Assembly (NCBI GenBank): GCA_903813345.2
Contig: CAIIXF020000001.1
Location: 9,585,598 to 9,649,597, forward strand
Direction of reading: 5' to 3'
Source of the DNA: Owenia fusiformis
Lineage: Eukaryota > Annelida > Polychaeta > Sabellida > Oweniidae
Length of the DNA: 64,000 bases
Shown: positions 2,702 through 62,900 of the stretch, in pieces
Position numbering within the stretch: the stretch's first letter is position 1
How the letters are laid out: every line of letters begins with the position of its first letter
Translations under genes and position numbers: made by a program
The notes under the pieces: model-generated
What the model was told of the DNA's origin: nothing
Database searches by the model: none
What the model saw: the letters and a program-made list of their open reading frames with translations, nothing else

Positions 2702-5700
2702 ATGGTAGAATATATAACATCATTAACAATGAATCTTGTTTGGAAAAACTTTAGGATTTGTCTGTTTCTAGGAGTTTTCTTCAGCATAGGTGAGTAAAGA
2801 TTTCTATTCCAGGGTGTTCAAAAAAACGCTACCCAAAGAAATCGCTATATCTTGAAAAATACTGGTTCAATTATGTTCATATTTTCAGGAAATAAAGAAG
2901 AGACTGTGTATGTATAGCTCTTGTAAATGGTTAGTTGTAAAACATGATGCCTTGGACACCTGCTCAAGAGACAGTTGTGCTAGGAAAATACGAAAAACGC
3001 AGTCAGGGGTGACTGCAACCGGAAAAAAACTAAGTGACTCCCTAACCATAGTGTTTTGGCTAGATTCAAATTTGGCGTAAATCATCTTCATTCACTGTAT
3101 GGTAAATCTATAGAGAGGAATCAAAATCACTTCAGGGACTTTACAGTCATGGTCGAAATGCTTTCAAATCGCAGTCAAACGCCCTGGTTCAGGGAGATTT
3201 AAGAAGGCATTTTGACCATGACTGTAAAGTCCCTGGAGCATTCTGGTATGCCAGAGCCCCTCTTATCTGCCGTTTGCGGAAGGAAAAAGACAAAGGGGGC
3301 GCGGCTATCGCGATGTCCCTGGAGTAATTTTGATGAAACTCCACAAATTCACCACACATGTACAATTGAATGAGGATAATTTGTGCCAAATCTGAAGTGC
3401 CAAGTTATTTGGTTTTATTGCTGTGGCAGTCACCTCTCACTGCGTTTTTATATTTTCCTAGTACAACTGTCATTTGAGCAGGTATCCAAGGCATCATGTT
3501 TTACAACTTACTGACAACAGGCGCTATACGTACACACACAGTCTCTTCTTTCTTTTCCTGAAAAAAGAACAAAATTGAATCAGTATTTTCCAAGATAAAG
3601 TGATTTTCCATTCACGTTTTTCGTATTTTGCTAGTACAAGTGTCTTTTGAGCAAGTGTCCAAGACATCATGTTTTACAACTAACTAACAACAGGGGCTAT
3701 ACATACACAGTCTCTTCTTTCTTTCCTGAAAATATGAACATAATTGGATTAGTATTTTCCAAGATATAGCGATTTCTTTGGGTTGCGTTTTTTTGAACAC
3801 CTTGTATATTGTAAATCATTGCCCTGGGCGAAGCCAGTTATGAGGCAAGCGAGGCAATTGCCTCACCAAAAATGTATGTATTCATTCAGACGTTATTTCA
3901 ACCAAAACTGTGGAAGTGAAGTCCAAATACACTAATAGCTCAATTTTACACACCTTTTTGTCCATCATGTTACAGTGAAAACGTGTCCCTGTAGTGTGAT
4001 CTTGGGTGGCATGGCAGTCACAAGTAGAAATCTTACAAAATTTGAAAGCCATGTTATTTGTCCAAGTTGCAGGATCGGAACTGATTTTTAAATTAAATAA
4101 TCAAATCAAATATGACTTATATGAGCAGATTCGTAAAAACGTGTGTAACAAAGACTGTGTAGAGTAAGTTTAGAGTAAGTTTCGAAACCCTGTTAACAAT
4201 TCTACAATAGTTATTGCTCTAATCATTCCATGCCTACTTTTAAGACTTTCCAATAGTTGAAGGAGTGAATTGGTGCTACCATTGTATCTACACAGCCGAA
4301 GCCAACGTGCCGAACCTTGATCCAACCTGCATCTACAAACCACAGAGAGTTGCATATAGCAAATACCCGTGCAATGTCAAATACTGCACGACATACAAGA
4401 GGACAAATATCGGTAGGTACATAGCCAACCGCAATTACCCGTGCAATGTGAAATACTGCACGACATACAAGAGGACAAATATCGGTAGGTACATAGCCAA
4501 CCGCAATTACCCGTGCAATGTCAAATACTGCACGACATACAAGAGGAAAAATATCGGTAGGTACATAGCCAACCGCAATAATCCGTGCAATGTCAAATAA
4601 TGTTCTACATACAAGAGGACAAACATCGGTAGGTACATAACCAACCGCAATTACCCGTGCAATGTCAAATACTGCACGACATACAAGAGGACAAATATCG
4701 GTAGGTACATAGCCAACCGCAATTACCCGTGCAATGTCAAATAATGCACGACATACAAGAGGACAAATATCGGTAGGTACATAGCCAACCGCAATTACCC
4801 GTGCAATGTCAAATACTGCACGACATACAAGAGGACAAATATCGGTAGGTACATAGCCAACCGCAATTACCCGTGCAATGTCAAATACTGCACGACATAC
4901 AAGAGGACAAATATCGGTAGGTACATAGCCAATCGCAATTACTCGTGCAATGTCAAATTCTGCACGACATACAAGAGGACAAATATCGGTATGTACATAG
5001 CCAACCGCAATTACCCGTGCAATGTCAAATAATGTTCTACATACAAGAGGACAAATATCGGTAGGTACATAGCCAACCGCAAAAATGAACATACAGTAGC
5101 CAACAGCAAGTACCCAAACAATGTCAAATAATACAGTACATACAAGAAGACAAATATTGGTAGGTGCAAAGCCAACAGCAAATACCCAAGCATTGTCTGC
5201 ACAATGTGTCTCAAAAAAATGTTACACTTACAAAAAGTTCAATATCTTTCATAATTTTGACTTTTCCCCTTAAATATACTTTGGATACCATCAGATTCAA
5301 AATCTGTCCTTGATTGGCTCTACGGGACAGCTTTTAGTGTTCCATGGTAAAATCTGACTTGCGCCAACATCTAAGTGATTGGATGGACCAAATGACAAAA
5401 GAGGAATAGTTTCTTTAACATTTAACTTTCTTTTGAGTAGAAGCTTGACCTTTAACTGAGTCATTCTGTAATTTTCCTATTTGTCTTACATATGATCATT
5501 GGGTCTATCCACTTAAACATGTGGTCTCCTCAACATGTTCTCCAAAGCAAATCTGAGGTACCCTTGCCCATGCGCACATGCAATATCACACTGATCCCAT
5601 CAATTATTTCTGCAGAAGTTCATTTAGGTCAGTTTGTGATGCTGTAATTAAAGCGCTTTCAGAGGCCCTTCAAAAAATCAAGGGTGTAAAGTAGGATGAC

Positions 5701-7002
5701 GTCTCTGGGGGCCAATCCATGGGGTAATTCAATGCTATCTTTTGATTTCCAAAGAGTTCTACCAAACATTCTGCCATAGACCTTTGCACCATCCTATTGC
5801 CATCATACGTAACAAAATTGAACACTCTGACAATGAAATCTTGTATTTCTATCCAGGAAAGAAACAACTGGATCATTGATTAATCAAGATATCACTGTCC
5901 ACATCATTTACACAAAAAAAGAATTGTCCAACCACTGAAAAGTTGGCGCAAATCAGATTTCACGTGCGTCTTTAAAATCTGTCCTGTGTAGCCAATCATA
6001 GACGGATTTTGAATCTGATGATGTGGATTTATTCGAGAAAGACTTGTCTTTTGGTATCTAAGCATATTTTAGGGGAAAAGTCAAAATCATGAAATATATT
6101 GAACTTTTTGTAAGTGTAACGTTTTTGAGACACACTGTAGTGTGCTACATTACACGGGGACAAACATAGGTAGATACATATAGACCCAAACACTCTTTAT
6201 CGTGACAATGTTGCGATCGTGGTACAAGAGGACAACTATCGGTAGGTACATACTGACGTAATGTCAATTATTTTCTAAAATGTTCAGCTGTTCACATTCT
6301 AATTAGGATACATTAGAGTTAACGTATATGCTAACCTGCACTAAGTACTATACTATATTATATATGTCTTCCAGATAATAGATTATCGTTTTTGCTATTC
6401 AGTCTTCGATTTATAAAATCTACAAAATTTGTGTTTTAGAAACTGGGGAACTAGCTTCTTTTTCTCGTCAGTGTGAGGAGCACTCTAGAGGGAACGCCTG
6501 CAGCAGAGATGGCGAATACGAGGCATGCTTCACGGCGTGTACTGAGGACGGTTGCAACACCGGTGATGGACTCCCAGAAGATTTTGACTTCACCACGGAT
6601 CCCCCAAAGGCTAAGGGTAAAGGTAAAGGAAGACGACTTAAACCTGGCATGAAAAGAAGATTTCAGCCTAAAGTTCGTCTCAATAAGAAGGGCCATTGCG
6701 ATACAGAACGTTGTCGTTTCTCTGATAGGAACTTGTCTACCAAAAACCCTGGGAACGCAACACTTAACTCAAAGACGCAATTCGTAAAACTCGGAAAATC
6801 AGGGAAGAAAAAGATGACGAATGCAAATACGGATGAGAATGAAACTATGGACAAACCAAGCAAAGACGACACATCCTATATAAGGAGACGAAACAATAAT
6901 ATAAAAGGGGAAACTTCGAGGAGAAATTCTGCATCTCAAATTAAAATGAGTTTTCCAATAATTGTTACATTTTCTTTGTATATTTTCTTTTCTCGTCTAT
7001 AA
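2702..7002 (+). CDS. Ly6/three-finger-domain GPI-anchored protein (3 exons)
   Basis: Coding exons are 2702-2789, 4257-4412 and 6440-7002. Both introns are GT-AG and phase 1, giving 268 residues. Residues 10-29 are a hydrophobic signal peptide. Residues 35-121 hold ten cysteines (36, 39, 54, 68, 73, 93, 102, 111, 115, 120) opening with WCYHC and closing with C-x3-C-x4-CN, the classic Ly6/uPAR spacing, similar to quiver/crooked-type invertebrate proteins. A basic, low-complexity stalk (about 122-250) follows, then a hydrophobic C-terminal tail ending FSLYIFFSRL, as expected for GPI attachment. It is probably a cell-surface or secretory-pathway protein; a specific partner cannot be named. Exon 2 ends at the first of about eleven tandem copies of its own splice donor, so longer splice forms are possible. 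An upstream 5' UTR exon is not excluded. Confidence 0.8.
2810..3804. mobile_element. MITE with long terminal inverted repeats, in Ly6 intron 1
   Basis: The ends read CAGGGTGTTCAAAAAAACGC on the left and, reverse complemented, CAAGGTGTTCAAAAAAACGC on the right. Imperfect inverted repeats continue for at least 180 bp. A TA follows the right end (3805-3806), which would fit a Tc1/mariner-type duplication, but the left TA is not preserved. The right arm is partly duplicated (3410-3560 and 3590-3700). A second hairpin lies inside (3133-3238, arms starting CAGGGACTTTACAGTCATGG). It has no coding capacity. Confidence 0.7.
3805..4256 (+). other. remainder of Ly6 intron 1
   Basis: Non-coding. A short palindrome, GAGGCAATTGCCTC, lies near 3860. 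The intron ends with the acceptor TTTCCAATAG just before 4257. Confidence 0.5.
4341..5200 (+). repeat. 72-bp minisatellite built from the Ly6 exon-2/intron-2 junction
   Basis: About eleven tandem units of 72 bp, the first of which includes the end of Ly6 exon 2. Each unit holds the last codons of the exon, the donor CGGTAGGT (exon end at 4412, then 4484, 4556 and onward) and the start of the intron. The + frame stays open through the first three units and stops at 4598-4600. The long antisense ORF across it (289 codons, 4223-5092) follows only because 72 is a multiple of three. The last units are diverged, and the array is split by the MITE at 5202-6137. Confidence 0.85.
5202..6137. mobile_element. 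MITE with ~160-bp inverted repeats inserted in the Ly6 minisatellite
   Basis: The ends are CAATGTGTCTCAAAAA on the left and, reverse complemented, CAGTGTGTCTCAAAAACG on the right. Inverted similarity continues inward through TTACACTTACAAAAAGTTCA and beyond, about 160 bp. TA follows the right end and CA precedes the left end, so a TA target duplication with one mutation is possible. Minisatellite remnants lie on both sides, so the element landed inside the array. It has no transposase ORF and would need a mariner-type enzyme in trans. Confidence 0.75.
6150..6265 (+). repeat. diverged tail of the Ly6 minisatellite
   Basis: Two degenerate units remain after the MITE, including ATCGGTAGGTACATA near 6238-6252. 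They show that the array once continued across the insertion point. Confidence 0.6.
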
Positions 7003-7242: not shown

Positions 7243-8680
7243 GCAGTGTTCACAACAGAGTAACTAACACGACCAGTGTTTACAACAGAGTAACTAACAC
7301 GACCAGTGTTTACAACAGAGTAACTAACACGACCAGTGTTTACAACAGAGTAACTAACATGACCAGTGTTTACAACAGAGTAACTAACACGACCAGTGTT
7401 TACAACAGAGTAACTAACATGACCAGTGTACAGAATAGAGTAACTAACACGACCAGTGTTTACAACAGAGTAACTAACATGACCAGTGTTTACAACAGAG
7501 TAACTAACATGACCAGTGTTCACAACAGAGTAACTAACACGATCAGTGTTTACAACAGAGTAACTAACACGACCAGTGTACAGAATAGAGTAACTAACAC
7601 GACCAGTGTTTACAACAGAGTGACTAACATGACCAGTGTTTACAACAGAGTAACTAACATGACCAGTGTTCACAACAGAGTAACTAACACGATCAGTGTT
7701 TACAACAGAGTAACTAACTCGACCAGTGTACACACCAGAGTAACTAACATGACCAGTGTTTACAACAGAGTAACTAACATGACCAGTGTTCACAACAGAG
7801 TAACTAACACGATCAGTGTTTACAACAGAGTAACTAACACGACCAGTGTACAGAATATGGTAACTAACACGACCAGTGTTTACAACAGAGTGACTAACAT
7901 GACCAGTGTTTACAACAGAGTAACTAACATGACCAGTGTTCACAACAGAGTAACTAACACGATCAGTGTTTACAACAGAGTAACTAACACGACCAGTGTA
8001 CAGAATAGAGTAACTAACACGATCAGTGTTTACAACAGAGTAACTAACATGACCAGTGTTTACAACAGAGTAACTAACATGACCAGTGTTCACAACAGAG
8101 TAACTAACACGATCAGTGTTTACAACAGAGTAACTAACACGACCAGTGTACAGAATAGAGTAACTAACACGACCAGTGTTTACAACAGAGTGACTAACAT
8201 GACCAGTGTTTACAACAGAGTAACTAACATGACCAGTGTTCACAACAGAGTAACTAACACGATCAGTGTTTACAACAGAGTAACTAACACGACCAGTGTT
8301 TACAACAGAGTAACTAACACGACCAGTGTTTACAACAGAGTAACTAACACGACCAGTGTACAGAATAGAGTAACTAACACGACCAGTGTTTACAACAGAG
8401 TAACTAACACGACCAGTGTTTACAACAGAGTAACTAACACGACCAGTGTTTACAACAGAGTAATTAACACGACCAGTGTACAGAATAGAGTAACTAACAC
8501 GATCAGTGTTTACAACAGAGTAACTAACATGACCAGTGTACAGAATAGAGTAACTAACACGACCAGTGTTTACAACAGAGTGACTAACATGACCAGTGTT
8601 CACAACAGAGTAACTAACACGATCAGTGTTTACAACAGAGTAACTAACACGACCAGTGTACACAAAAGAGTAACTAACAC
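7243..8680. repeat. 30-bp satellite array with higher-order structure
   Basis: Forty-eight units of 30 bp in perfect register, with no indel over 1.4 kb. Each has the form TAACTAACAC then GACCAGTGTT then TACAACAGAG. Variants (CAGAATAGAG, CACAACAGAG, GATCAGTG, ACATGACC) recur in a fixed order, often every 150 bp (five units), so blocks of units were copied together. Both strands are open because 30 is a multiple of three; these 451- and 486-codon ORFs are not taken as genes (no start context, no neighbouring exon). Confidence 0.9.
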
Positions 8681-8714
8681 GGCACAATATCAACGAACCA
8701 TGAGTTTTTATTAG

Positions 8715-21905: not shown

Positions 21906-24065
21906 GTAAGAAAGGATACATACATATTGTTAATAAATTTCGCGATCGACCAAAGTTCAATTTAGTATATATTGAAATTTAACATAGAAACATTTCTCAC
22001 AAGTTGTCATGAGTTTACTTTAATTGAGCTATAGAAAACACTTTTGAATAAGATTACTTTAGTGTATAATTATGAGACGTCGGCCAGACAAAATTGGGCA
22101 ATGAGCAAAAAATGTTTAAAAGGAAGAATCAATAATAAGTACTTACACGAAATGTAATTTCAATCATAGCAATGACGTTAAATGAAGCTTATAATTATCT
22201 CAGATTCGTTTTTGGGGCTTACATAGGTTTCGTGTTATTTTTCTTCGTTTGTGTGCTTAGATTGACGATCATGTACCTTATGTTGCGTCCTTAGAGGTGT
22301 GTGTGTTTATTTATTTATTTAGATATACACTTTTTTAACAGTGGCACTCTTACATTAAGGTGCATCTAATCGAAAAATATCCACAATGCCATGTTGGTTA
22401 AAAACAGACATTTTATCAAACTAAAATGAGTCTTAAAAAGAATTAAAACATAGGTATGTTGATATTTACTTAAAATCTTATTTAGAAAGCGTTTTTAGAG
22501 TCGAATAAGACACCATATTCGTGTTGTTGACACGATCAATTTATCATTTGAAATTATATCTCATGGACATATATTTATAAGATATAAGATATAACTTTGG
22601 TAGTATGATACCTTTAGGCGTTTTTATGATCTGGCTATCTGTCATTCGATTCGATCCTGTTTTCTTCTTGGGGTGACTTGTTGCAGTTTGTTCAGTAGTT
22701 ATTTTGATATGATTTGTTTACTTTCTGCGATAAAGTTTCATAAAAAAGGATAGATATCCATATTTCTTTTATCTATATTTATGCAAAATAGTTTTTTGAG
22801 GGTGACTTTTACTTGTAATTTTGATATTACTTTTTTCAGTTGGTTTAGTTTGTTGAATAGAAGATGTTCAAGCAAATGATTTAAATAAGAGCTAAAAGTC
22901 AAGTTGAATTCTTGTTTTGGTCTAAATTACTCTCTTGTGGTACAAATCTTTGAAATATCAACTCGTTCGTAAGTGCTAAGCATAGATTGCAGCAACATTA
23001 GTAAAATTCAAAAAATAAAACACCCACAACCTGAATTAACAAAAAACACATTTAAAATGCATATATTTACAATGTCAGATGAATGTGGTTGTATCTTAAC
23101 AGTTAGTTATGAGGATATGGATGTTTCGTCGAAAGTCCTGTGTACATTAATGTTGCCCTTAAGCGGCACGAGTATTTTTTAACTGTCAAGTTTAGCGTCA
23201 TCGTTGTAACTTTACTACATTAACGACCAGACTCCTAGGTCATCGTATACTGTGAATCTGCTATAACGTTCCTAATTCAGTTTAAGTTCATTAATTTCAA
23301 CTTAATGACCTAATTTATTGAGGTTCAAATGTGTGTATAATTAAGCAATACTAATTTACTACTCCAGTTTTATCTTATACTCCTTGGGCCTGAACAGTGC
23401 TGTTAATTGATCGACAGTTAAAAAGTTAAAAGTTATATAACATGTAGCTCTTCTGAATAACAGCAGATCTAAATTGATCCTTGTAGAACGCCATGTAGAA
23501 TTGAATCGTTGTAAATTTAATGAACAATCCAGAATGTTCATTGTTTCTGGAATTCTATGACCACGATTATCAGGTTCAAATTCAATACATACATCGGGAC
23601 AAAAGTTGTGATCTGTAGCCCCAATAAACGACTGGTATTGCAACTGCAGTCTGGTCATTCTATAAGACATACTGTGATAGACTTACATTAAACGCGCCCA
23701 CAACGTCAAATTGATGATGAACGTGACTTTTGAGTTCAAACTGGCTGGTTGTCTGGTATTTCAATAAACAAAAATGCGTGCAGAATAAAATGTGACAGTT
23801 TTGAAATATGGAACAATGGATTGGTCTGGGGATAGTCTTGTAATGTGAAATGGACATTGTTTATTAATGGCTGTGGACAAAGAATGGCGTCCTTTATCGT
23901 GATATATAACTTGTGACCATACTCTGGACTCTGGACGTATCACTTCTCCGTTACTTTAATTTTACTAAAATATTTTAAGTATTGTTACAAATTGCCTTAA
24001 TGGTTTCATGAAATAGCATAATATCAAAACAAATTGCAAAAATCCAAATATAAAATATTTACATT
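21906..24065 (+). other. innexin intron before the transposon
   Basis: AT-rich, no further innexin first exon found. ORFs at 22973-23182 and 23359-23943 have no recognisable product. Confidence 0.45.
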
Positions 24066-24150
24066 CAGTAGAGATGCTGAGCTCGATTGCCGTATAATAC
24101 TTCATTTTAGGCACCATACGGCGATTGCCGTATCATACTTAAATTGTATA
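24066..24150 (+). repeat. left terminal inverted repeat and subterminal motif
   Basis: Perfect 30-bp TIR, then a second copy of the inner motif (CATACGGCGATTGCCGTAT). The GCCGTAT words probably bind the transposase. Confidence 0.8.
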
Positions 24151-25127
24151 AAACCGTTATTTTTCAAAATAAAGCTCGGGCGTAAAGACGTATATCTTGA
24201 GTTTGTTCCATTTTTTAAGGTACGTATGTATATTTGTATGTTTAGATCTTTAACTTGCTATACAATTAGCTAAGCTTGTTTAGCGTGCTTAAAATAGTAA
24301 GTAAATGAATAGCCTTTTGAAAATAAAATACCCAAGTCAAAAGTACACGGATCACTTCTGAAATACTATAAAAATCGAGGAAAATAATATCCAGTAATTT
24401 TTAATCATTCTTTGGAAATATCAAAAATAAGTATGGAAGCTATTTTATTTCTCTATAAGAAAGAAGATTGTTTTAAATGTATTTCCCTCGAGGGAATTAA
24501 AATTCTATCATTGGGAATTCACGCTATAGTCTTATGAACTTTAATGAAGGACTTTACCGTAAATTGACGACGTGATTTGTATGCAGCTGTACGTTAACAT
24601 ATTCCTTATCTTAACTTACCTTGCGTGCGTGGAGCTAGGGGCAACGTGAAGTCCAATGGTCCTTTAGTCTAGTTCAATAAATATTTTTAAAATAAATATG
24701 CCGCCTGGTTCATAAGGGAACCTGGGATAAGATGGCCTTTAGTGATTTAGTAGTCTTGATCCAGTTTTGAAACTATTCTTGCTCCGAGTAAGTCGTGTAG
24801 GTGCCAAGTTGGAAGGTGATTCGAAAGAAGACTCTATTCTATTGTAGACAATGAATTAATGATTAGGTTGTTACAATTGGGAAACAAATGCAACGGGACC
24901 ATTTTCCCCCAGTTTCCCTTATTGCATTTGAGACTTTGTTCGGGGTGGTGTCAATTTAAATGACTACATGGTCTGATTTTTAAACTTTAAATTGCAGTAA
25001 TGAATAAGCTATTACGTAATTGTATATGGAGAACACTAAGGTACTATCTTGCCCCTGGCTCCCCTATTAGTGTGAACTTAATGTTGTCTTTCTAAAAAAA
25101 CTAATTTACTAAGTTTCTTTCTAGACG

Positions 25128-28100
25128 ATGGGGCGGTTCAAGACAAAACAACGTTGTGCATCCCAAAATATTCATGGCGAGAATAATGAACAAATGCACC
25201 AACTGATTGACTCAAAATATATAAAGGCTTCAACCAGAGACCGTCTGTGTGAACTTGCCCAAATAGACTTTTTTAGTTTTCGAAAAAGGCACAAACTAAA
25301 GCCCCTTTCATTTTGTAAATCCTGCATCAAAAACGTTGAATTAGAAAACGGTGGAAACGCACCCGCAAGAAAACAAAACCTATCACATGTTAATCACGAT
25401 CATAGTTACAATTCTGGAGGGAAAAAAGACAATGATATATCTATACAAACAACAAATACTATTCTTGATCTTGGAGATAATCACCAAGACTTGTCGAACC
25501 AAATGGAGACGTTGCCATCGTCATATTTAAAGAACCTAATCTATGCACTGGGGAAAATTATTAAACAGGAAATAAAAACATATTCTAACAACTCAAACAT
25601 TGATTTGGATTTTGAAAAATTACGCCTGAGCAATGCAGATTATTTCACGTCATGCCCAAAACTACTTGCAACATTGCTTTTAAGCATATCTGGTGTTCCA
25701 ATGGACTATACGTTTAAATCAAGCAATGTCCCTGGTCAGTATCCAGATGCATTAGAAACCCTAGAATACACGTTTTAAATCAGCATGATGCTTGTACTTC
25801 AAGTAGTTACTACTTCATGTTTGCTCTACATACGCTTGTTTTACGTTATATAAAGCATATCCCGCAAAACATATGTAACGATTTTTATGTGAATAGAAAA
25901 CGTGAAAAACAACTAAAAACTCGTGCGCGAATTATTTTTAGGTATTTCAAAATGCTTTATCACGCGTCAAATGTCCGCGCAAAATAATTTAACAAGGAAT
26001 GTTTATAATGTTCCATGTTCAGTTTGTGCATTTTAGTGCAACATACTTTTCTAATGACAGTGTTTATAGGCCTACCAGATCTTCCAAAATGGTGAAACGG
26101 AATAAACGAATTCAAATTTTTCTTTCTATTGCAGTTAACCAGATTTCAATAGAGCTTTGAGTTGATATTCGGGTCATTATACGACGTTCATAAAATTCCG
26201 CCATTAATCGCCATCTCCATAATATGACTACACCAGTAATGCAAAAGTGGGTTTAAATCTAGGATGAAGAATCCTAGGTTTGAATCGATGAAAATGAAAA
26301 AGTTTCAAATAATTCCTATCCATTTTCGCACGCTCGGTCTTTACTGCGTTCGACCGACGGGAGCCGAGTGAACGAAGATGATTTCTATCGGCAATTGGAA
26401 AGATACGTAAATGGTTTTCAGTGTATCTTGATACTGACCCTTGTATTTCTCAGATCCAGACCAAGATAGAAACATGGCGTACAAAATGTGCAAAACTGTG
26501 GAGTCCATCCTAAACCTTACCTATTTGAACAGTGTTCTCCCAATCCATTTTAGAGAGTCGGTACTTTTATACAGTTTAACGGGCAGCAAAATTGCACTTA
26601 CCGTTCTTAACAGAACAGGCCCATACGCCTCCTATGATAGAGTAAGAAAATGGCTCACAAATCTTGGGCAAAATACAATAGAGATAGTGGACCAACAAAC
26701 CCAAGGGAATGATACTAGTATACTAATGGCATTCGATAATAACCAGGTACTTAAAAAGACCTGGTCAATTAGCACAAAGAAAAAATTCAACGCTAGTGTA
26801 GTGACCATGATTGTTTCCTTCACGATTGAAAATGAACCCCTACAAAATAAACCAATGTTTTCACCAAATCAATGGAAAAACAAGCCGTTGACTGATGATA
26901 AGATTCAAGAAATAAAAAATCCAGACGAAAATCCAGCCTTTGCTTCAATACAAAACAAATCAATAAAAGGCTTCGTAGAGAAACGATTAAAAAAAATCAT
27001 CAGTGAACAAAAAATTCGAAACGGCAAAATGACAGATTTAATAGATGATACCATAGTTGAAAATAAGTACAATAAAATATTTCACGATCCATGCAACAAA
27101 TGTGGTTTGGAGGCTATCCCAAAGTCAAAACGTGTATGTCCACAATGTAAACAAAAAATTACACGTCAAAATGACTTTAACAACGCAAAGGATAAAAGTG
27201 ATAAAGGCGCTTGTGAAACAAAAAATAACCACACACCAAAAAGAACCAGAGAGAACGATTCAATGAAATGTGAAAAAAGGATGTCCGTAAAAAAATTATG
27301 TACGGGGAAAAGTATTGTTGAGATTGAAAATCCTAGGAAAATTAATACTGTATACGTAAATGATGTTCATGTTTTCCGTCCATATTTCGCGAACCCAAAT
27401 TCATATGAAAACTGTCAAAACGTTCTCATTGACATTGGTACAAAAGCGGGTGTCAAACAATATGGAGGTACTGCTCGCGAGTGGGTTGCTGTATGTTGCG
27501 ACGGGATGCCCTATAGTATGTGCAACAAGTTGCAATCGTGCACATATAGGTGTGGTTACTGTGGTGGTGTTTTTCGGGGGAAATCAAGTGTTAACAGTCA
27601 CACATGTTCTGAAATAGTACAACGTCAAGAATCAGACATGTCCATAGAATTTAAGTGGTTGCTATTAATTCCTGGACCTGGCCATATAGAGATGAACATG
27701 CTAAAATCTTTAGTTTCACTTACCTGGGACATTTTCTGGAAGGAGATTGCCAAAATATTTAATTTTAAAAGCGAACACGCATTATCATATGCTAAGAAAG
27801 TCAGCGATCACCACAAAGGGTGGGAAATGCTGCAGCTAACATATGCTGCAGTCATCGATGAATTGCTGGTAGTCTACGTAAGAACACAACATGACATGGC
27901 CAACTCACAAGAACTTAGTTATAAACATTTCATAGAAATGATAGAAAAGTCGGACGACCCCAACTTTAAATTCATGGGAAATACGGTAGTCCCATTGATG
28001 AATTCCATATTACTCTACAGAGAAGGCGTTCGATCGAGCGATTTCCAAAAAATGTTGGCAGCGAGATCGCTATTTTCAAAACTTTTTGTAGCAAGACACC

Positions 28101-28927
28101 ATCCAATCTATCGGGAACTGGAAGTGAACGATTATATGCTGTATGAAAAAGCTCCCGAACCTATTAAAATGTTTCTCGAGAAATGCAACTCTATTAATAT
28201 TAGCGGGGTTCCAAATTCGAATGAGGGGGCCGATTTTAAATTGGAGGCGATCAATAAGAAAGCACAGTATTTCCAGCCACCGAGGCCAAGCAACGAAAGT
28301 TGGAGCAATGTTTGTGCCAACTTCGACAATTTGGAAAATATACGCAATACTGTTTTCAGAGAAAGTGGAACAATCGACCCTGCAAAGCAGCGAGTAGAAT
28401 CTCATGCATCAGAGTCTGAAGATGATATAAATGAAGTACGATCATTATTTAGGGAACAGGCATACTTATTCCCATCTGATGAGAAAAAACACACCGATGT
28501 AACATGTTCTATCGAGTTAGATAAAGAGCTTATACATTTCAATGAAAAGGCTAAAAAGATGAGACAAAACTTTGTTCAAAATGTAGTTGATCACAACACT
28601 AATGAGGTTAAAAATGTGAACTTTAAAGAGGAACCGATTTTTGTAACCACTACAGAAAGGTCGGAGTACTTTGCATTAGAAAAACGATCAATCAAATCAT
28701 TAACTTACCTCATCCAACAGCAAATTAACGAACTGTCAAGTGACGATGAGGATGAACTTATTCTAAGCTTTGCTACACAGTTACAGGATATAGTGTCATC
28801 GAATAAAAACGCAAAAGAATCAAAGACAATATTGATATCATTGTACAAAGATATAGAGGATTATAAACTCGTGAAAGCGGTAGCTAACGATTTTATACTG
28901 GAACAAGAAGTCAAAGATGAAGTGTAA
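25128..28927 (+). CDS. transposon protein A, candidate transposase (DUF6589-like)
   Basis: Exons 25128-25734 and 26454-28927, joined by a phase-1 GT-AG intron (GTCAGT...TTTCTCAG), give 1026 residues; the acceptor-like TTTCTTTCTAG just before the ATG suggests a further 5' UTR intron. Residues 1-200 are basic and contain FCKSC. Later features are FDNN (D297), a zinc knuckle CNKCG...CPQC (416-434), CCDGMPY (D552), a second Cys/His cluster (569-587) and GHIEM (E615). Family members as I remember them from fungi and invertebrates share FDN, DG and H-x-E-M blocks, then the REGVR and GADF blocks also seen here. D297, D552 and E615 could be an RNase-H-type DDE triad (inference). No closer functional name is safe. 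Confidence 0.7.
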
Positions 28928-29105
28928 CATTTACTAATATTTCAGTAATATAATACCTGAGCGTGCATACATGTACTGACATTTACAGGAAATATATGAC
29001 AATGACTTTTACAATAACAACATGACATAGAGGCAATTCTATGTGTTTGTAAACAATGATATAATAGTTTTAAACGATTATACGAAATATGTATGTATAC
29101 ATATG

Positions 29106-29111
29106 AATAAA
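29106..29111 (+). promoter_or_regulatory. polyadenylation signal for transposon gene A
   Basis: AATAAA about 180 bp after the stop of the + strand gene, before the end of the convergent gene. Confidence 0.4.
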
Positions 29112-29435
29112 TATACCAAGTTAAATGACAGTTCATACGTAGCCTATACGCAGGATACGACATAACATGTATTAAAACAATGTGTATAAGAGAAAAAACA
29201 ACGCTTTGTTATATATAAAAATCTGTGTTAAAACAATTTGAATTGAGACCAAAGTCATTAATCCATGAATACTTTTCAGTAAAAATACTCAATATTAAAA
29301 TTAATCAAAAGAGCTCATTAAATTGAATAAATAAACAATTAAAAATATATGTATTGAATTGCACTGAATATTGATAAAGTAATAAATTATAGCCTGTACA
29401 GTAACATAAATTCAGTGTATAGGCGTAACTATGAG

Positions 29436-31053
29436 TTAAAGTTGTGTAATGTCATTCAAGTTAATAGTCGAAAAAATGTTCCTATCCATCGTCGCTGCTA
29501 CAGGTTGTGCTGGTGGTAGTGTCTCAACTGCCAGGCCTGCTTCTTTTAAGCTGGCATATGTCTCTGCTTCCATCAACACGGCGGCGGACTGGCGAGGCAC
29601 CTCTGGCGACATGATTGATTCCTGATCCTCTTTCTTTTCCTGGATGAAAAGGTATATATACAGATATATATGATCATGAATACTAGTATTTTAATAGTTA
29701 TGCGAACTGCCATGCAGCATACAGGAATAATACAATCGCTTTGGTTTTTTTAATGATCAACATGCAGACATGGTTCATGGTTAAATAACTGCAATCAAAA
29801 ACAAACATGGGTAAAAACAAAATATTGTTTATTCTTATTTTTCAATTTATTATATCAGATCTAATACTCTTAATTATTATCCATATCAAATTTGATACCT
29901 GCTCTTGAACGATAGCTTTCTTCGTCTTCTCACTAAGTATGTGGGTAGCTGCCCCCTTGTTGTTGTATCTCCGTTCATCCCCCCCTACTTCTGGATGTAT
30001 CCCCTCCTCCTGGTATTTCACAAATGTGTCTTCGTCTTGAGAATACACAAAGGCATTCCCCGCCTCATCAACGTACCTCAGAAATATCGAGCCTCTGGTC
30101 TTAGTGCACAACTGGTCTGCTCGTTTGATCAGTCCAGTGAGCCTATCTTTCTTCGCCTGGGCCCGTTTCCTAGGCTCGGGCTCATATTCATGAGAAATTG
30201 GCCCCCTGTGGTGTTTCCAGTTTTTATTTCTAAATCAAAAGAATTAAATTAAAAGTATGAATGTCGGATACATAGAAGTAGGAATAACCGAAACCTTCGG
30301 TGAAGCGATATGGGGAAGTCCCGTCTGAAAAGCGTAATTGATAATCGTCCCCGGATCATACGCATTTCAACAGAAATTCTACTTTTAATTCAGTTGCAAT
30401 TTACGAATTAGAATATCTTAGATCTTGAATCGGATAATAAAACACAAAGTTTACTTTGCATTTGTAAGTGGATGTTTCATCAATGTGTATAATAACGGCG
30501 AAGTGACAGAAAGTCAAGGGAGGACGGTCATTTTAAATCCCTGTTTTAAATGCAAGGGCAAATCAGTTTAATATATTGGCATGTTAGAGGTCATCTTGCC
30601 CTGTGACAAGTTAGTGTCAGACTGTCAGCTGTTCAATATACATATAGTGTAAGCGGTCAAGGGATCATTGATCATCTATGTACATGTAGATATTGAGTTG
30701 AATATCTGAATATTAATTCGAATAAGATCGTATCGTATTTTATATTTGAATTATGCAATGTGCTTTCCGGTTTGAGCATGCAGCCATGCACATGGAAAAT
30801 TTTACGGTAAACTTAGCTTGGACAATGCAATTGTCTATAAATCTATCAGTTATTTAATTAATTTCCTTCGTCAGTTACAATTTTAGATGTCAGGAATTTG
30901 AAACACTAAAACTAGCACTAAGCACGAATTTTGGAATGAATCTGATGAATACGCGTGGCAAAATATCAGGCACATACATCGAATGTAGTATTTTTCAAAG
31001 TACAGTACTTACGCTTGTGGTCCAGTTGAAGGTCTCTTCTTTGTTTGTGACAT
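29436..31053 (-). CDS. transposon protein B, MADS-box-like small protein
   Basis: Three exons on the minus strand: 31053-31013, 30229-29899 and 29639-29436, with GT-AG introns in phases 2 and 0, giving 191 residues. Residues 34-80 are basic, then read LTGLIKRADQL followed by a beta-like stretch ending NAFVYS. This matches the order of the MADS DNA-binding fold (T-G-I/L-x-K-K/R-A-x-E/Q-L, then strands). The C-terminal third is acidic and rich in P, A and E. It probably binds DNA, perhaps the element's ends, or regulates expression. The MADS link is my pattern match and not a search result. It converges on protein A with about 500 bp between stop codons. Confidence 0.65.
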
Positions 31054-31109
31054 TTTAATAATATTGTCTGCTCTCTTTGGGCGATAAAAGGTAAAGGAAG
31101 TAGTATGTA

Positions 31110-31246
31110 TACAATTGAAGCATTATACGGCAACTGCCGTATGGTACTTAGGATGGAATATCATGAAATTGAAACACTATACGGCAACTGCCGTGTGGTA
31201 CGTCAAATGAAATACCATACGGCAATCGAGCTCAGCATCTCTACTG
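31110..31246 (-). repeat. right terminal inverted repeat with subterminal palindromes
   Basis: Perfect 30-bp TIR (31217-31246) preceded by two copies of a palindrome of the type ATACGGCAACTGCCGTAT (about 31134 and 31182). Spacing between copies is about 45-50 bp. The right end has more copies than the left, as in many transposons with unequal ends. The promoter of gene B must overlap this region, since its ATG is at 31053. Confidence 0.75.
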
Positions 31247-31251
31247 ACATT

Positions 31252-34006: not shown

Positions 34007-34174
34007 TTAAATATATACCACTATCCACACGTTCCATATATCAATAGGGAGTTTAAGCTTGCAATGTTTTTCACAACCTAAACGTATAAGGAAAATATTT
34101 AAGCGATGCATTGACGGTCGTTCCTCAACAATTTCATTGACTGCATTTGTAATCACTGTCTCTGTGTGTTCCAG

Positions 34175-34828
34175 GAGATCCTATGACATGCTGGACCCCA
34201 GCTCATTTCACGGGACAGATGGTCCAGTATACGGACGACTATTGCTGGATCAAAAACACGTACTATCACCCGATGCACGAGGTGGTACCGAGGGAGGGTG
34301 AACCTAGAGACTTTGACGTGACCTATTATCAGTGGGTTCCGTTGTTTCTCATGATCCAAGCCTTGTTGTTCTACATTCCCAGTGGTATCTGGCACATCTT
34401 CAACGATAAGACCGGTATCAATATACACAACATCATCGTAGCCTCAAACACAGTAGCCCAAGTTGTTCCTGAGGGTCGGGAGAAAACGATGAAACATTTA
34501 GTCAGACACATAGACGCTTACTTGGAACGCCAAAAAGAACATCGGAAAGGTAGACTAAATGCGGCACGACAATTTATGGCAACAAAGATGTGCTGTGTAT
34601 GCGTCGGCAAACGTGCTGGAAATTTCTTGTTGGTTCTCTACATGTGTTGTAAGGTTCTCTACATAATAAACGTAATTGGACAGTTGTTCATGTTGAACGC
34701 TTTCTTGGGAACGAAGTACCATCTGTATGGGTTTGATGTGCTGAGAGATTTAGCAGCTGGCAATGACTGGACTGCATCACCAGTGTTCCCCAGGATAACA
34801 CTCTGCAGCTTTAAGATGAGAGTCTTAG
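34175..34828 (+). CDS. innexin shared exon 2 (E1 loop, TM2, cytoplasmic loop, TM3, E2 start)
   Basis: The acceptor GTGTGTTCCAG and phase 1 complete the G of YVG from any first exon. In the joined protein (402 aa), extracellular loop 1 has C54 and C72, in DPMTCW and DDYCW. The innexin/pannexin signature YYQWVP is at 99-104 and TM2 at about 103-124. A basic cytoplasmic loop follows, then TM3 at about 199-224 and loop 2 cysteine C259. Donor TTAG/GTAAGA. Innexins form hexameric or octameric gap-junction channels and hemichannels in the plasma membrane. Confidence 0.92.
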
Positions 34829-35054
34829 GTAAGAAAATTTGATACTTTTCTTTCACACGTTCATTCAGACAGTTTTTTGTTTTCACCAATATCTAAGTAC
34901 TTTGCAATCGTTGTATGTAAATAAACATGTGTGTTAATGGTTATGGGTGGTATGTGGACAAAAATCAAAATAAGATATAACGAGATTAAGGATTGAGAAA
35001 TGTGTATTCACATTGAATGGTTATATTCATGGTTATGTTGTTATTGTTATCCAG

Positions 35055-35464
35055 GAAACGTCCAGCGTCATACTTTACAATGTGTGCTTCCGATCAACCT
35101 CTTCAACGAGAAGATCTACGTCTTCATTTGGTTCTGGTACGTCTTTGTCGCAACAGTAACCTGCATCAACTTCCTCTCTTGGCTCACCAGGATCTTCCAT
35201 GGAGCCAGGATGTCCTTCATCAAGAAACATCTCGCCTGGATGGGTAGGCTTAACGAAGAGGATGACCGTCAATTGTTCACTAGATTCGTTGATAATTATC
35301 TCCGCCCTGATGGATTTTTATTGCTGCGTTTGATCGCTAAAAATAGCACAGAGTTCGTAACATCAGAAATCATCGCTGGACTTTGGGATAACTACAAACG
35401 TGTGTATAGTGGAGGGATGAGCCTAACGGGCAATGATAAAGAAGAAAAGGAGAGTGAAGCATGA
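35055..35464 (+). CDS. innexin shared exon 3 (E2 end, TM4, C-terminal tail)
   Basis: Acceptor TTATCCAG, phase 1. It completes loop 2 with C276 in the conserved block RVLGNVQRHTLQCVLPINLF, then TM4 (about 287-310, FIWFWYVFVA) and a cytoplasmic tail of about 90 residues ending in acidic EEKESEA. The four loop cysteines (54, 72, 259, 276) match the two-plus-two innexin pattern. The stop at 35462-35464 gives a normal family length. Confidence 0.92.
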
Positions 35465-41581: not shown

Positions 41582-44500
41582 TTATATGACTTGGAAATCA
41601 GGGGAACTGGGAGGTGACAGTCTCTGGCTTGTACCTACAGGCGTACTTGTCCCAGAACTTATATTCTCTGATTTTTTATCTGTGTCGCTCAGTTTGTGCT
41701 TATCATGTTTATGCTTATGCTTTTTGTGTTTCTTATGCTTGTCTTTCCTTTTCTTTTTCTTATGATGTTTTGAACTAGAGCTATCATGTTTATCAGGGTG
41801 GTGGGAATCTTGGCTGGATTTTTCAGATTTTATTCGCTGCGATTCAGTGAAGCTTGATCTACTGTCATCATCCATAATTATGACCTCTTCTTGGATATCT
41901 GAAATAGGAAGTGGGTCAATAGGTTACGATAATTATATTTCTATTCTCAAACTCAGACTTATACTGTGTACTATATTCATTACACAACAGTTTTATATCA
42001 AATGAGTTTCTGTATAACAGCAGTTCTTGACATTACTTATAAATACCATTTTCATATTCTCTCTTAATGAGTGCAAATTGTGGTTTCCAAATTGAAAGTT
42101 AGAAGGGTGAGATATTGGAGAGATTCCATGCACAGATACAAAAAATTTAGAACAGAATATTGCAGATTATCTTTTAAGTTGTTATCATTAAGGTTTACAT
42201 AATCTACATCTCTTGTATTTCTTTCTCTGCATTCAATAAAATATAATCATCAATCAATATCTTGTATTTAATAATAATCGAAACTAAAGCATTAAGTTTT
42301 CATTTTTTGAGACCATATTCAACGTAAAAATCACATCATGTGCACTCATTGGAACTATGCGCTCATTAGAGAGAAGACTGTATGCATATTACTGTAACAT
42401 CAACCTCTTCAACTGACCACAGGCTGGAATCTAGAGTGGGGAAGATCTTTCCTATATTTGATGTCATTATGGGTGGGTAGGGCTTGTTTATAATAGAATC
42501 AAGACTGTAGAAGATCTTACCTATATTTGATGTCATTTTGGGTGGGTATAGGGCTTGTTTATAATGGAATCTAGACTGTAGAAGATCCTTCCTATATTTG
42601 ATGTCATTATGGGTGGGTGGGGCTTGTTTATAATGGAATCTAGACTGTAGCAGATCTTACCTATATTTGATGTCATTATGGGTAGGTGGGGCTTGTTTAT
42701 AATGGAATCTAGACTGTAGAAGATCTTACCTATATTTGATGTCATTATGGGTGAGTAGGGCTTGTTTATAATGGAATCTACACTGTAGAAGATCTTACCT
42801 AAATTTGATGTCATTATGGGTGGGTAGGGCTTGTTTATAATGGAATCTAGACTGTAGAAGATCTTACCTATATTTGATATCATTATGGGTGGGTAGGGCT
42901 TGTTTAAAATGGAATCTAGACTGTGGAAGATCTTACCTATATTTGATGTCATTATGGGTAGGTGGGGCTTGTTTATAATGGAATCTAGACTGTAGATCTT
43001 ACCGATATTTGATGTTATTATGGGTGGGTAGGGCTTGTTTATAATGGAATCTAGACTGTAGAAGATCTTACCGATATTTGATGTCATTATGGGTGGGTAG
43101 GGCTTGTTTATAATGGAATCTAGACTGTAGAAGATCTTACCTATATTTGATGTCATTACGGGTGGGTAGGGCTTGTTTATAATGGAATCTAGACTGTAGA
43201 AGATCTTACCTATATTTGATGTCATTACGGGTGGGTAGGGCTTGTTTATAATGGAATCTAGACTGTAGAAGATCTTACCTATATTTGATGTCATTATGGG
43301 TGGGTAGGGCTTGTTTAAAATGGAATCTAGACTGTGGAAGATCTTACCTATATTTGATGTCATTATGGGTGGGTAGGGCTCATTTATAATGGAATCTAGA
43401 CTGTAGAAGATCTTACCTATATTTGATGTCATTATGGGAGGAGAGACAAGTGGAAGTCCAGCAGGGATGGGAGGTGATTTCTGCTCAAACATAGGAGGCA
43501 TAATCTCACTCACCTATAAAGCAAAGTTCATCATTAAAATGAAATCATAATTATGATTTGCTCTGAAAGTTGCATGTATGGTATAAGCAAGATGTAAAAC
43601 TATCACCTCAGTAATTTCAGTTGCATCCTGATTCCATTCATAGATTGATATTGTATACCCTGTACACATTTTAACATGTCACAAGATAAAGAATCCCTCG
43701 TTTATTGTTTTGTATTGTAAGGAACCCCAAGAAATTTCTTGTTGATGAACTACTATTTTAACCTTTTGAATCCCAGGCTCTAAAATCAGTTTGAAACAGA
43801 GGATTTTCATATTTCAAGGTTTAAACATGGAAATCTAAAAATGGGAGGTATTCAGATAAGAGAGATCTTCAAATATACAGTTTTTACTATAACTTACCCC
43901 AGCAAACTTCATGTACTCTGAAGCAAATCCAGTAGGGGGAGACTTGAGTGGTGACGAGTCTGGGCTAGAGAGTCTAAGAGGAGCTCTATCCATATTAACA
44001 TCCTACAATAATACATTCTTTATATACAACATTCCGAGCTACATGTACACTGTAAATCAAGAACAATCAAACTTGTAGGTCATATATTTATCACATAAAA
44101 TCAGAACATAAAAGATATGAAGTCAAAATTAAGATATCAGTCTATTTATATCAGTGCAACAATGTAAATGATCTCCAAAAGGCTTTGATTTAAAACTGGT
44201 TGTCATAGTAACTGCTTAATAAAAAATTTTCAATGGATATTGTCTCAAATATTAGTCATTTACAAATCTGTATATCTTCCTCTATAATGTACAAGTCTAC
44301 CAAATTTCATTCTGCTTAACTGAGGGGAGGGGTCGAACTGTATTTTTGGTGAATTTATTTGCATAACTATTCAAAACACTGATTTAGATAGTTAAATGTT
44401 GTACTGTAGAGGGCGACTGAACACAAGACTCTGCAGTTATTTTAGTTCCGATAAGCTTTCCGTATAAAAACAATATGGCGGCTCTAGGTGAGTCAAATGG

Positions 44501-56900: not shown

Positions 56901-59900
56901 CAATGCTAAACTTGCACACTGAAATAGGTATTCCAGCAGGCCTAGGAAAATATGGCTAGAAAAAGATAATACACCTAAGGGCTACAGGTGGACAAACTAT
57001 TCCCCCTGAAAAGTTTTTTAAGGGTCAGATCATTAAATTCCTGATTGCATTGAAAAGCTTTGAATGCTAATTTTCAAGAATGGATGTATTACAAAAGAAG
57101 AAAATATGAAGAATTCATATCGTTTATTTCGAGTGATTATTGAGTGTCAAGTTTTGTCTCTAGTGACAGCATGTTACTGAATATCTCATCAAGTGACCTA
57201 AACTACAGCAGCTAAAATAAGCATACCGAAATATTATAATTTAGTATGATTCAGAGAAAGGGATTATACAGAGAGATTAGCAATTTATCTATTATCTTAC
57301 AATTTAGCTCAATTCTTGAATTTGAAGATCTACTGCTATATTGTTTAATATGCATTATAACAGATCGATTTGATGGTAAGAACTAGTATGTGATATAATT
57401 GATTTTACCTTTTTGTCATCATTGCTAAAGAATATAATAATACCATTCCAATTAATGATAACTCACTTATTGTATTACTTCCGCTTGATACACATGCTGG
57501 AAGATATGCTTTTAAAATTAGTAAACCATTACCAAAACTATGGTTACCCTGTAGGTGTGAAAGGCACATTAAAATGAATATCACCCCCTTCAATCTATTT
57601 TTACAGGTTTTTATGATTATTTCACGTTTTGCTATATTTTGCGTAACCAGGATGGTGAATTTTCTTCATTTTTCTTCAAACACTTCGTCTTACCAATATT
57701 CATTATATATGTCAATTTCAAGAAAATCGCGCCGCTACGTTTGAAAATAATCCAAATTATGTCATTTTTCCCATTGAGCTCCATTATAAAAATGGAATTT
57801 TCAAACTTAATATTTTAAAATTCTACGTGGTGAAAAGTTGCATATTGAGTAGGTAGTTAATGTTATGGTGTAAAAAATTCAAAACAAAAAGGAATAAAGA
57901 AAAAATGCCACGGAGAAGTCTGCTTAACATGTCTTTAAGTATACTGTAGTGAACTAAGTTTAGTACTTTAGTGTTGGCTTTGCTGTACATTGGATGATAA
58001 AACTGTTGTGTTCAAACATGCTTCAATATACAACTTTGCTTTATGTTTGAATAAGGTTAACAAAGTGATACACTAGTACATGTATTCAACATTTAGATTA
58101 AGAATAACACACACTGAGAAGCATTCAAACTGTATATGCAAGCAATGCCACTATAGTATAAGTTAGACTAGTTCTCATGTGCATATCTTGTCTACTCTCT
58201 AATACAGCATTAACATTTTACATTGATCCTGAAGTAGATCAACATATTGAAGAACTGGGAACTGGGAAATAAAGGATACCTCATAAGTACAAGTGTTTCA
58301 TGAGAATGGAGATCCTTATAGACCACATTGATCACATAGTTCTCACTGTTGTAGACATGGATAAGACTATCAACTTCTATACAGATGTACTAGGTATGAC
58401 TGTAACAACATTCAAGGGAACAAGAAAGGCACTAGCATTCGGCCAATCAAAAATCAATCTCCATCAAGCCGGGAAAGAATTTGAGCCTAAAGCTAGAAGT
58501 CCTACACCTGGCTCTACTGATCTGTGTTTTATCACAAAAACCCCCATTGATGCTGTGATTGATAGACTGAAAGATCTGGGGATACCCATTGAAGAAGGCC
58601 CTGTAGAGAGGACCGGAGCTCATGGTACAATTCTCTCTGTGTATATAAGAGATCCGGATGGTAATCTGATTGAGCTTTCCAACTATGTATAACAATATCC
58701 AAAACAGATTGAAGAAAACCACAAACTATATAATATATTAAAAGTACCTGTTTGCATGGATTGATTCATAATTGTTACTAGACTATTACATGAATAGGCA
58801 TTCACACAAAGCTAGGAAAAGTGTGTCCGATTCCAGCCAATCCGAACACAGTCTTTCACATAACTGCAGTGCATTATATCACTAATAACCGCATTCAAAA
58901 TCATTTGTTAAACAGTTGTTAAACTTTGCATTCCTGCTGCGCGGTCATGCAAAGATTTGGAAACAATTTATTCAATGGAACGCTTCAGCAAATATAAGTT
59001 CAGGGCTTAAATCCTTAATTCCTTCACTAAGTTCCTTCACTATGTTGATATGCTCATGAAATATGAACTGACTTTTGGACATATGTAGTACGTACGTCAT
59101 GATAACTAAAGAGCAAAAAGTAGTCACATAAATAAATGTAATATGAATACACCATTATTTCCATAAATGTTTCATAAACTAAATAAAAATGTCCCAGTAA
59201 ATAGTTTTTTTGTGCCTGTAAACTAATGGCAATAACCCAGATGACAGTAGGAAGTTAACAATTTCACCACCAGGTGGCTAATTCAGGTCAGATAACATGG
59301 TCGATACAGTAGAAGGTTCCTTTAAAAGATATTTCACTTTTTTTGATTGTATAACATGAGCTATATGGGGCCTTTGAAGTCTTATTTTCAAAGAAAATTC
59401 TTATCAGTTAATCATACTGACATAACCTTTTGTCAGTATTAGAACTTTACAATGGAATTCCAAGGTCTTTTCTGTTAAAACTTGTAGTTATAGAGTGTAA
59501 TATCATATATGAAACATAGTTGTAGTTTCTAAGCAACCATGTTTCAGTAGACGATTACTGCCAGACAATGAACATCATCTCATTTATACAATGACAAATA
59601 TCAGACAGTTTCAAATGCTAAAAACAAAATTGAATTATAATTGCTTGATTTTTGAGATATTGCCTGTATAGTTGGATTGATTCAAAATTGTATTCTTATT
59701 TAAACTTGTAAGGAAAATACAAGGCATATTAACATGCAAAATGCCATTTGTTACAGATGCTGAATGCCAACCGCCAGACTTTGTCACAAAAAATCAAGAG
59801 ACTATAACAATATGTCACCACATGTGCGAAGTGCAGGGTTCTCATCATAAATCCCATTGTTGCATGTAATGCACACTGTATCTTGCAATATCATCATACC

Positions 59901-62900
59901 CATGTATGGTAATTCCTCAGTTTTTTTCCATATATAGTAATTCCTCAGTTTTTCTCCATATATGGTAATTCCTCAGATGTTCTCCATATATGATAATTCT
60001 TCAGTTTTTCTCCATATATGGTAATTCCTCAGTTTTCCTCAACATACTGATGACTATTCGATGTGGTGAGAACATAGGTGTGTATAAAATATACGAGGGT
60101 TGTCCAAAAAAGATAACTCACCTGTGTAAGTAATTCTGGTCCAATTCTAAGCTCCAACATGCGTATAACAAGATGAGCCTTCTTCTCCATCATTTGGGCG
60201 TACCTGGGTGAGATAGTGTGTGGGTGGCGTATCGGGAAATATGTACAATGCTCAAGACTGGAGGATGGGTCCAGCACGATACCACATACATTCTGCTCAT
60301 AGTCAATCACAGACTGCAGCTCCTAAAATGTCATTAAATAGTCACACTTTTTGGACATTGTAAATAAATGATAAATATTATTTCTGTTGCTTTAAATTAA
60401 TGTTAAATAACTTATATAATGCTGCGGTCACTTTTGATCGACATCAACTGTGCGGTGGCTGTAGCTTCCCAAGATCAAAAGAAACATGCAGCATAAAATA
60501 TGAGGATAAGCAGTGAGATTTCAATTTTCTATATCGATTTTGTGAAGCTACGGCAGCATTGCAGCCGCCATAGAGTAAATGTGACCGAGGCTTAAAGAAG
60601 GGCACTTACTTCATAAATGTGGTATCTGTATTCATTGGTTCCAAAGAATCTCTTCACAAACAGAGAGGCAAGGTATAATGATATTCCTTTTGGCAACCAA
60701 GCATCTGACCTGCATCAATAGTTCATAATTTCATAAAAGATGAACTTAGAATCTAAAATAAATTCTCTGAAATTCTCCAAGTTAAGGAACTGAACCCTTG
60801 ATGTACAAATAAACACCACATAAATGTTAGCTATCTTTCCCCAATCATATTGCTACCCATACATCAATGTAATAAATGCTGCTCACCAAGTATCCATGGT
60901 GATGAATGTACCAAAGAATTGCCTGGCGATTGCCTCAGCCATGATGCTACGCGATAGGTAGGTCTGGTCAATGATGCGGGAGGAATGCAACAGATTTGAA
61001 CTGAAAATGATAAAAGCTCTTGATGCATTTGTTCCAAATATGCTTTGACAATAATAAAAGAAAAATCATTGCACATATGTGTTGGAATGAAATAAGCATT
61101 TGATTACTTGTTGTACTTTTGATATTATTGTTGTAGTTTTAAGATCGTTTTTAAACAAGAAATCTGCCTGAGAGACCTAAAAGGGTCTTCATGCAATTAT
61201 GCACCATAATACATTAAACAACAAACACGTCCTGTTTGGCCGAGTAGATGGTTAAGTTTCGAATTTCATGAGTTATAAATCATTATATTCAATAGAAATG
61301 AGAACTTCCTGATCTATAAAACATACCTTAAGAATGTTAGAGTTGCAAAAGATTGTGCATCATCATATGTCTGGTCCACAAATACCTGCTTGTAGCAACT
61401 GTAGGGGTAACGTATGGACATCAACTCCTCATAGAACTCAAATGCCTACAAAATAAATCACTGAACTACCACACTGGCATATATACTCAAATGCCTACAA
61501 AAGAACTCACTGAACTACCACACTGGCATATTTACTCAAATGCCTACAAAAGAACTCACTGAACTACCACACTGGCATATGTACTCAAATGCCTACAAAA
61601 GAACTCACTGAACTACCACACTGGCATATATACTCAAATGCCTACAAAAGAACTCACTGAACTACCACACTGGCATATTTACTCAAATGCCTGCAAAATA
61701 ACTCACTGAACTACCACACTGGCATATTAACTCAAATGCCTACAAAAGAACTCACTGAACTACCACACTGGCATATATACTCAAATGCCTACAAAAGAAC
61801 TCACTGAACTACCACACTGGCATATATACTCAAATGTCTACTAAAGAACTCACTGAACTACCACACTGGCATATATACTCAAATGTCAACTAAAGAACTC
61901 ACTGAACTACCACACTGGCATATTTACTCAAATGTCTACTAAAGAACTCACTGAACTACCACACTGGCATATATACTCAAATGTCTACTAAAGAACTCAC
62001 TGAACTACCACACTGGCATATTTACTCAAATGCCTACAAAAGAACTCACTGAACTACCACACAGGCATATATACTCAAATGCCTACAAAAGAACTCACTG
62101 AACTACCACACTGCCATATATACTCAAATGCCTACAAAATAACTCATTAAACTACCACACATATATACTCAAATGTCACAAATGCAAGAATTTATTGAGC
62201 TATTATATTACCATACATATTCAAATGTCACCAATGCAGGCATTTGAGTATATAAGCCAGTGTAGTAATTTATTGAGCTACTTCACTGGAATATATACTC
62301 AACTGTCACTAATCCAAGAATTTATTGAGCTACTACATTTGCATATATACTCAACTGTCACCAATGCAAGAATTTATTGAGCTACTACATTTGCATATAT
62401 AATCAATTGTTACTAATGCAAGAATTTATTGAGCTACTACATTTGCATATACTCAAATGACACTAATGCAAGAATTTATTGAGCTACCACATTTGCATAT
62501 ATACTCAACTGTCACCAATGCAATAATTTATTGAGCTACTACATTTGCATATATAATCAACTGTCACTAATGCAAGAATTTATTGAGCTACTACATTTGC
62601 ATATATACTCAACTGTCACTAATGCAAGAATTTATTGAGCTACTACATTTGCATATATACTCAACTGTCACCAATGCAATAATTTATTGAGCTACTACAT
62701 TTGCATATATACTCAACTGTCACCAATGCAATAATTTATTGAGCTACTACATTTGCATATATACTCAACTGTCACCAATGCAATAATTTATTGAGCTACT
62801 ACATTTGCATATATACTCAACTGTCACCAATGCAATAATTTATTGAGCTACTACATTTGCATATATACTCAACTGTCACTAATGCAATAATTTATTGAGC

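Follow-up and report, generated by a model that had tools for sequence, protein, structure and literature searches.

Comparison with described systems

P element and hAT transposons generate target site duplications of 8 base pairs (bp), Transib elements end in CACWATG, and PIF/Harbinger elements encode a Myb-like second protein and duplicate 3 bp. According to PMC2836001, PIF/Harbinger open reading frame 1 (ORF1) and the transposase are both required for mobilisation. For the Academ superfamily, PMC10045372 gives duplications of 3-4 bp in AcademX and of 9-10 bp in AcademH, and relates this difference to the nuclease of the former and the helicase of the latter. Here we describe an intact 7181-bp DNA transposon from the annelid Owenia fusiformis. 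It lies within a stretch of 64,000 nucleotides, hereafter the window (assembly GCA_903813345.2, contig CAIIXF020000001.1, positions 9,585,598 to 9,649,597, forward strand), whose first letter is position 1 of our coordinates. The element carries two genes: A, for a predicted transposase, and B, for a MADS-like protein. We conclude that it is probably a new Academ-related lineage with an unusual partner gene.

Comparison with Academ suggests a homologous transposase core, as judged via DUF6589 proteins of the same genome, some of which carry a FEN/XPG-like nuclease region. The alignment of A spans D2, the PG..H motif and D...E..N. The element differs from AcademX by its 5-bp duplications (15 of 17 copies) and by the absence of any Pfam nuclease match in A or B, where AcademX encodes a nuclease with its transposase. 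It differs from AcademH by the same 5 bp and by the absence of a Pfam helicase match, and from Academ in general by a two-gene plan with a MADS-like second protein. A resembles P element and Hermes (hAT) transposases in its predicted fold, an RNase-H core whose last acid follows a long helical insertion, but has no Pfam match to those families, and the duplications are of 5 bp. Transib/RAG1 agrees in the 5-bp duplication, and A is predicted to have the broad architecture of the Transib enzyme, whereas the window element ends in CAGTAG and the structural match is weaker. The two-protein plan resembles PIF/Harbinger in the way it may work but not in membership, A having no Pfam match to that transposase. 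Finally, the MADS-box factors Mcm1, SRF and MEF2 come first among solved structures for the B profile, but window B scores under the curated cut-off and is transposon-borne.

Neither the window element nor any DNA transposon encoding a MADS-like protein was described in the literature searched, which covered titles and the starts of abstracts, with Repbase and most subscription papers lying outside. The term DUF6589 was absent from the full-text literature searched.

Element boundaries and genomic copies

The boundaries are as follows.

24066..31246: intact transposon with two genes
24061..24065, no strand: left target site duplication, ACATT
24066..24095, + strand: left terminal inverted repeat, 30 bp, perfect; its inner part, ATTGCCGTAT, is a palindrome half-site
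31217..31246, - strand: right terminal inverted repeat, 30 bp, perfect
31247..31251, no strand: right target site duplication, ACATT

ACATT directly flanks the element on either side, and the element starts with CAGTAG and finishes with CTACTG. Inverted similarity of the ends extends past the perfect 30 bp, to 83% over 81 nucleotides. A first-pass annotation of this DNA had described a complete, recent element with these repeats and flanks, a 5-bp target duplication and two spliced convergent genes. All of this was upheld by verification of the ends, by a near-identical shortened copy and by the open frames of both genes (two exons on the + strand for A, three on the - strand for B).

A genome search with the first 301 bp of the element gave at least 26 matches at 24 loci, window included; both ends were present at 17 loci and a single end at seven. 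The 5-bp duplication is exact in 15 of the 17 complete copies (window included), the exceptions being L014 (6 bp) and L020 (four of five letters). A search of the 498-Mb genome for the 30-bp terminus pattern, at three mismatches or fewer, gave 74 occurrences, against 0 for the reversed control. Only one other complete copy has the window's exact terminus: L009, on C3, is 4383 bp long, lacks element positions of about 3029-5827, is flanked by its own duplication (AGCTA) and is 98.5-99.2% identical to the window element over the shared parts. The existence of this near-identical shortened copy with its own duplication indicates that the window element moved recently. L019 holds a 301-bp end fragment with 99% identity to the window element. 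The remaining 15 complete copies are related families with diverged interiors, in which no match to A or B was found.

A terminus pair about 8.6 kb apart at C5:21019558-21028121 belongs to the related CAGTGGAGACGATGG family. A scan of viral contigs for relatives returned 49 pattern matches, none of them confirmed.

Gene A and its predicted catalytic core

Gene A comprises two exons and the codons of three predicted catalytic residues.

25128..25734, + strand: exon 1, with ATG at 25128 and an alternative donor at 25739
26454..28927, + strand: exon 2, with the entire predicted catalytic core; product 1026 residues overall
26735..26737, + strand: codon of predicted catalytic D297 (exon-2 D88, FDNNQ)
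27500..27502, + strand: codon of predicted catalytic D552 (exon-2 D343, CDG)
28244..28246, + strand: codon of predicted catalytic E800 (exon-2 E591, DFKLEAINK)

The gene is open across both exons and convergent with B, and 12 donor-acceptor pairs preserve its frame. Residue numbers follow the 1026-residue form (donor 25735, acceptor 26453, the best-looking acceptor), while a 1022-residue variant (25739/26469), the same from M26474 onward, served for homolog searches. A protein search gave 41 homologs, mostly unnamed, including one from Capitella teleta, and a profile search returned 42. The A-family alignment (n=42) holds window A and 41 homologs; fragments are included, so residue counts have gaps.

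In the model of A, a long helical insertion precedes the last acid of an RNase-H core, in line with the RNase-H core anticipated by the first-pass annotation. The best structural matches of the model were the P element and Hermes transposases; a Foldseek search of the model against the PDB gave nothing significant. Based on this model, A is probably an RNase-H-core DDE transposase. Pfam detected no nuclease or helicase domain in A or B, up to E 10 for the nuclease. Candidate zinc ligands conserved in A are C416, C419, C431 and C434, and C569, C572 and H585.

The modelled catalytic triad is most likely D297, D552 and E800. D297 and D552 had already been named at the outset together with E615, and it is the third acid that changes: E800 is preferred because the model, the end-points of the Hermes and P element matches and the DUF6589 alignment all favour it. 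Among A-family members with a letter at the position, D297 is present in 38/38, D552 in 41/41 and E800 in 40/40, and the three occur jointly in 35/35. Across eight DUF6589 proteins of the same genome, the E800 position holds E in all seven with a letter (L045 ends earlier). Two observations weigh against this choice: E615 is invariant in the A family (42/42), and L044, one of the eight DUF6589 proteins, has E at that position. The other seven have leucine at the E615 (HIEMN) position, and E615 was set aside as the last acid, though without certainty.

An A homolog with 29% identity lies at C3:4986703-4988874 (+ strand), in an uninterrupted, apparently intronless frame of 1034 residues. It is adjoined by none of the 23 listed B matches.

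Gene B encodes a MADS-like protein

Gene B reads in the opposite direction.

31013..31053, - strand: exon 1
29899..30229, - strand: exon 2, with the MADS-box-like domain
29436..29639, - strand: exon 3, whose last 24 residues lie beyond the public model

The product has 191 residues, of which 1-167 are the same as in the public Owenia fusiformis gene model P0053 (174 residues, partial). The genome contains 23 matches to B, several with internal stops. A B homolog is convergent with an A homolog in two diverged, broken elements, at C310 (left end not found) and at C5:33.20 Mb, and a further B homolog (C10:31.434 Mb) is separated by 683 bp from a match to the terminus.

A five-member B profile was compared with the PDB up to E 10, and MADS proteins accounted for 13 of the 14 matches, headed by Mcm1 (E 0.0044) and SRF (E 0.0068). 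SRF-TF (PF00319) was matched at E≤1 by four of the five members, the best at 1.3e-5, and window B reached 14 bits, under the curated cut-off of 26. Judged by profile, B is a remote homolog of MADS-box proteins. Its single-sequence model, though helix-strand-strand, has low confidence and is too poor to use.

Subterminal palindromes and proposed mechanism

The window element contains three 16-bp palindromes.

24117..24132, no strand: subterminal palindrome TACGGCGATTGCCGTA, starting at element position 52
31180..31195, no strand: subterminal palindrome TACGGCAACTGCCGTG, 51 bp inside the right end
31126..31141, no strand: palindrome TACGGCAACTGCCGTA, the second at the right end, 105 bp from that end and upstream of gene B

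At two mismatches or fewer, these three compare with 0.06 expected in the window. Sixteen complete copies (L020 left out) were scanned for TACGGCAATTGCCGTA and near variants with up to three mismatches. The palindrome stands at left position 52 in 16/16 copies and 51 bp inside the right end in 15/16 (not L012); an extra palindrome is found 105-126 bp from one end in 15/16 (not L033). For seven ends drawn from five element groups, pairwise identity averages 0.84 in the terminal 30 bp, 0.55 at positions 31-51, 0.89 at 52-67 and 0.38 at 68-104. Two palindromes are present at the B end of the window element, of L009 and of L018 (for which the opposite end of the element was not found), and the right-end palindromes lie 73-142 bp upstream of the B start codon.

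The ends, duplications, gene pair, homologies and conserved palindromes are read directly from the sequence. The overall explanation that we propose, with a probability of roughly 0.7, is that of an autonomous cut-and-paste transposon with A as its DDE transposase and B acting on the palindromes. As suggested by the duplications and the predicted fold, A would cut at the CAGT ends and join them to target cuts staggered by 5 bp, using an RNase-H core of D297, D552 and E800 split by the long helical insertion; both its catalysis and its cleavage chemistry are inferred. By analogy with MADS factors, B would dimerise on the 16-bp palindromes, of which the left end has one and the B end two, and as an accessory factor would help to assemble or pair the two ends. 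B might also control its own transcription, given the position of the two right-end sites upstream of its start codon.

A possible, if somewhat doubtful, alternative is that the palindromes are bound by A through its zinc clusters, or are structural, and that the role of B lies elsewhere, for instance in transcriptional regulation. Because the terminal repeat itself contains the half-site ATTGCCGTAT, A could be the palindrome binder instead of B; this counts against a binding role for B, and the conserved candidate zinc ligands of A point the same way. However, binding by a dimer, as with a MADS protein, would suit the full palindrome, and the extra palindrome is located upstream of B.

Relationship to DUF6589 proteins and Academ

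The likeness of A to the uncharacterised DUF6589 proteins, noted at first pass, was confirmed by profile comparison. Pfam DUF6589 (PF20231) was matched at E≤0.01 by 26 of the 42 aligned A-family members, and window A scored 25.2 bits, below the curated cut-off of 27. When the A family was compared by hhalign with the eight own-genome DUF6589 proteins, E was 1.1e-13 over 263 columns, against 0.62 in a control comparison that used the nuclease part. The profile alignment pairs D552, the histidine of PGPGHIEMN and E800; D297 falls outside the aligned part.

The eight DUF6589 matches listed by the genome search include five within open frames of 1952-2641 residues; L039 and L040 are near-identical copies. 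L042 (C11:19.95 Mb) and L043 (C1:55.25 Mb) are giant proteins in which a DUF6589 core is joined to an OTU protease-like domain and to a FEN/XPG-like nuclease region. L042, L043 and L047 have in common a C-terminal region that shows FEN/XPG-like features and contains the motifs SKD(T/S)D and SGCD(Y/F), which we take to be those of a FEN/XPG-like nuclease. Pfam 5_3_exonuc_N matches this region in one of the three members (E 7e-4), and a PDB search with it gave only non-significant matches, to Exonuclease 1 (E 1.3). The layout of a DUF6589 core followed by such a nuclease is presumably that of AcademX. The 2395-residue L047 piece, scanned whole, gave no DUF6589 match, while L039, 1294 residues of that piece, matched at E 1.3e-12; we suspect the repetitive part of L047 to be behind the miss.

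On these profile alignments, protein A is homologous to DUF6589 proteins, which are therefore probably transposases, as the first-pass annotation had suggested. Its further suggestion of an undescribed superfamily is doubtful because own-genome DUF6589 proteins bear the FEN/XPG-like nuclease region. They probably belong to the described Academ superfamily, a link drawn from their architecture. With 5-bp duplications and neither a nuclease nor a helicase found by Pfam, the window element, which looks related to Academ, therefore matches neither lineage as described.

It is unlikely that A represents a superfamily apart from Academ, whose likeness to DUF6589 would reflect only the ancient descent of insertion-bearing RNase-H transposases. 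Such a separation would fit the duplication length (5 bp against 3-4 or 9-10 in PMC10045372), the absence of nuclease and helicase Pfam domains from A and B, a gene plan unlike that of Academ, and the direct DUF6589 score of window A under the cut-off. Against it stand the strong profile match across the D2-to-E region, the DUF6589 matches of 26/42 family members, and the fact that Academ, according to PMC10045372, already spans lineages differing in duplication length and enzymes. A bolder reading, somewhat less likely than not, is that the element stands for a separate lineage of animal DNA transposons, sister to Academ, whose mobility would depend on the MADS-box-like B acting at paired subterminal palindromes, a MADS factor turned transposition cofactor. 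It is improbable that B, as a passenger or a gene captured from the host, has no role in transposition, for although a single protein search gave no matches outside Owenia and gene-bearing elements are few where gene-less copies are common, three diverged elements carry B together with A, always in the same orientation to each other (52-53% identity), and the B end carries its two palindromes in the window, L009 and L018.

Neighbouring sequence

Innexin gene exons lie about 3 kb downstream of the element, at 34153-35461 on the + strand (Pfam E 3e-56 and 2e-32), and a glyoxalase-domain open frame at 58273-58689 on the + strand (E 1e-18). A 30-bp tandem repeat of about 48 copies at 7244-8681 has open frames of nearly 500 codons on both strands. 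Long tandem arrays are located at 4359-5082 (72-bp unit), 42425-43438 (69), 61436-62182 (49) and 62266-63062 (52). An Rfam scan of the window gave zero matches.

Significance

New here are the 5-bp duplications, the lack of a detected nuclease or helicase, the MADS-box-like B and the conserved palindromes of 16 bp, which lie some 51 bp from either end. The Pfam family DUF6589, listed as of unknown function, gains a likely one as a transposase catalytic core linked to Academ-type elements. To these is added a compact lineage that differs in duplication length and has a MADS-like partner, and of which the window provides an intact copy for direct tests.

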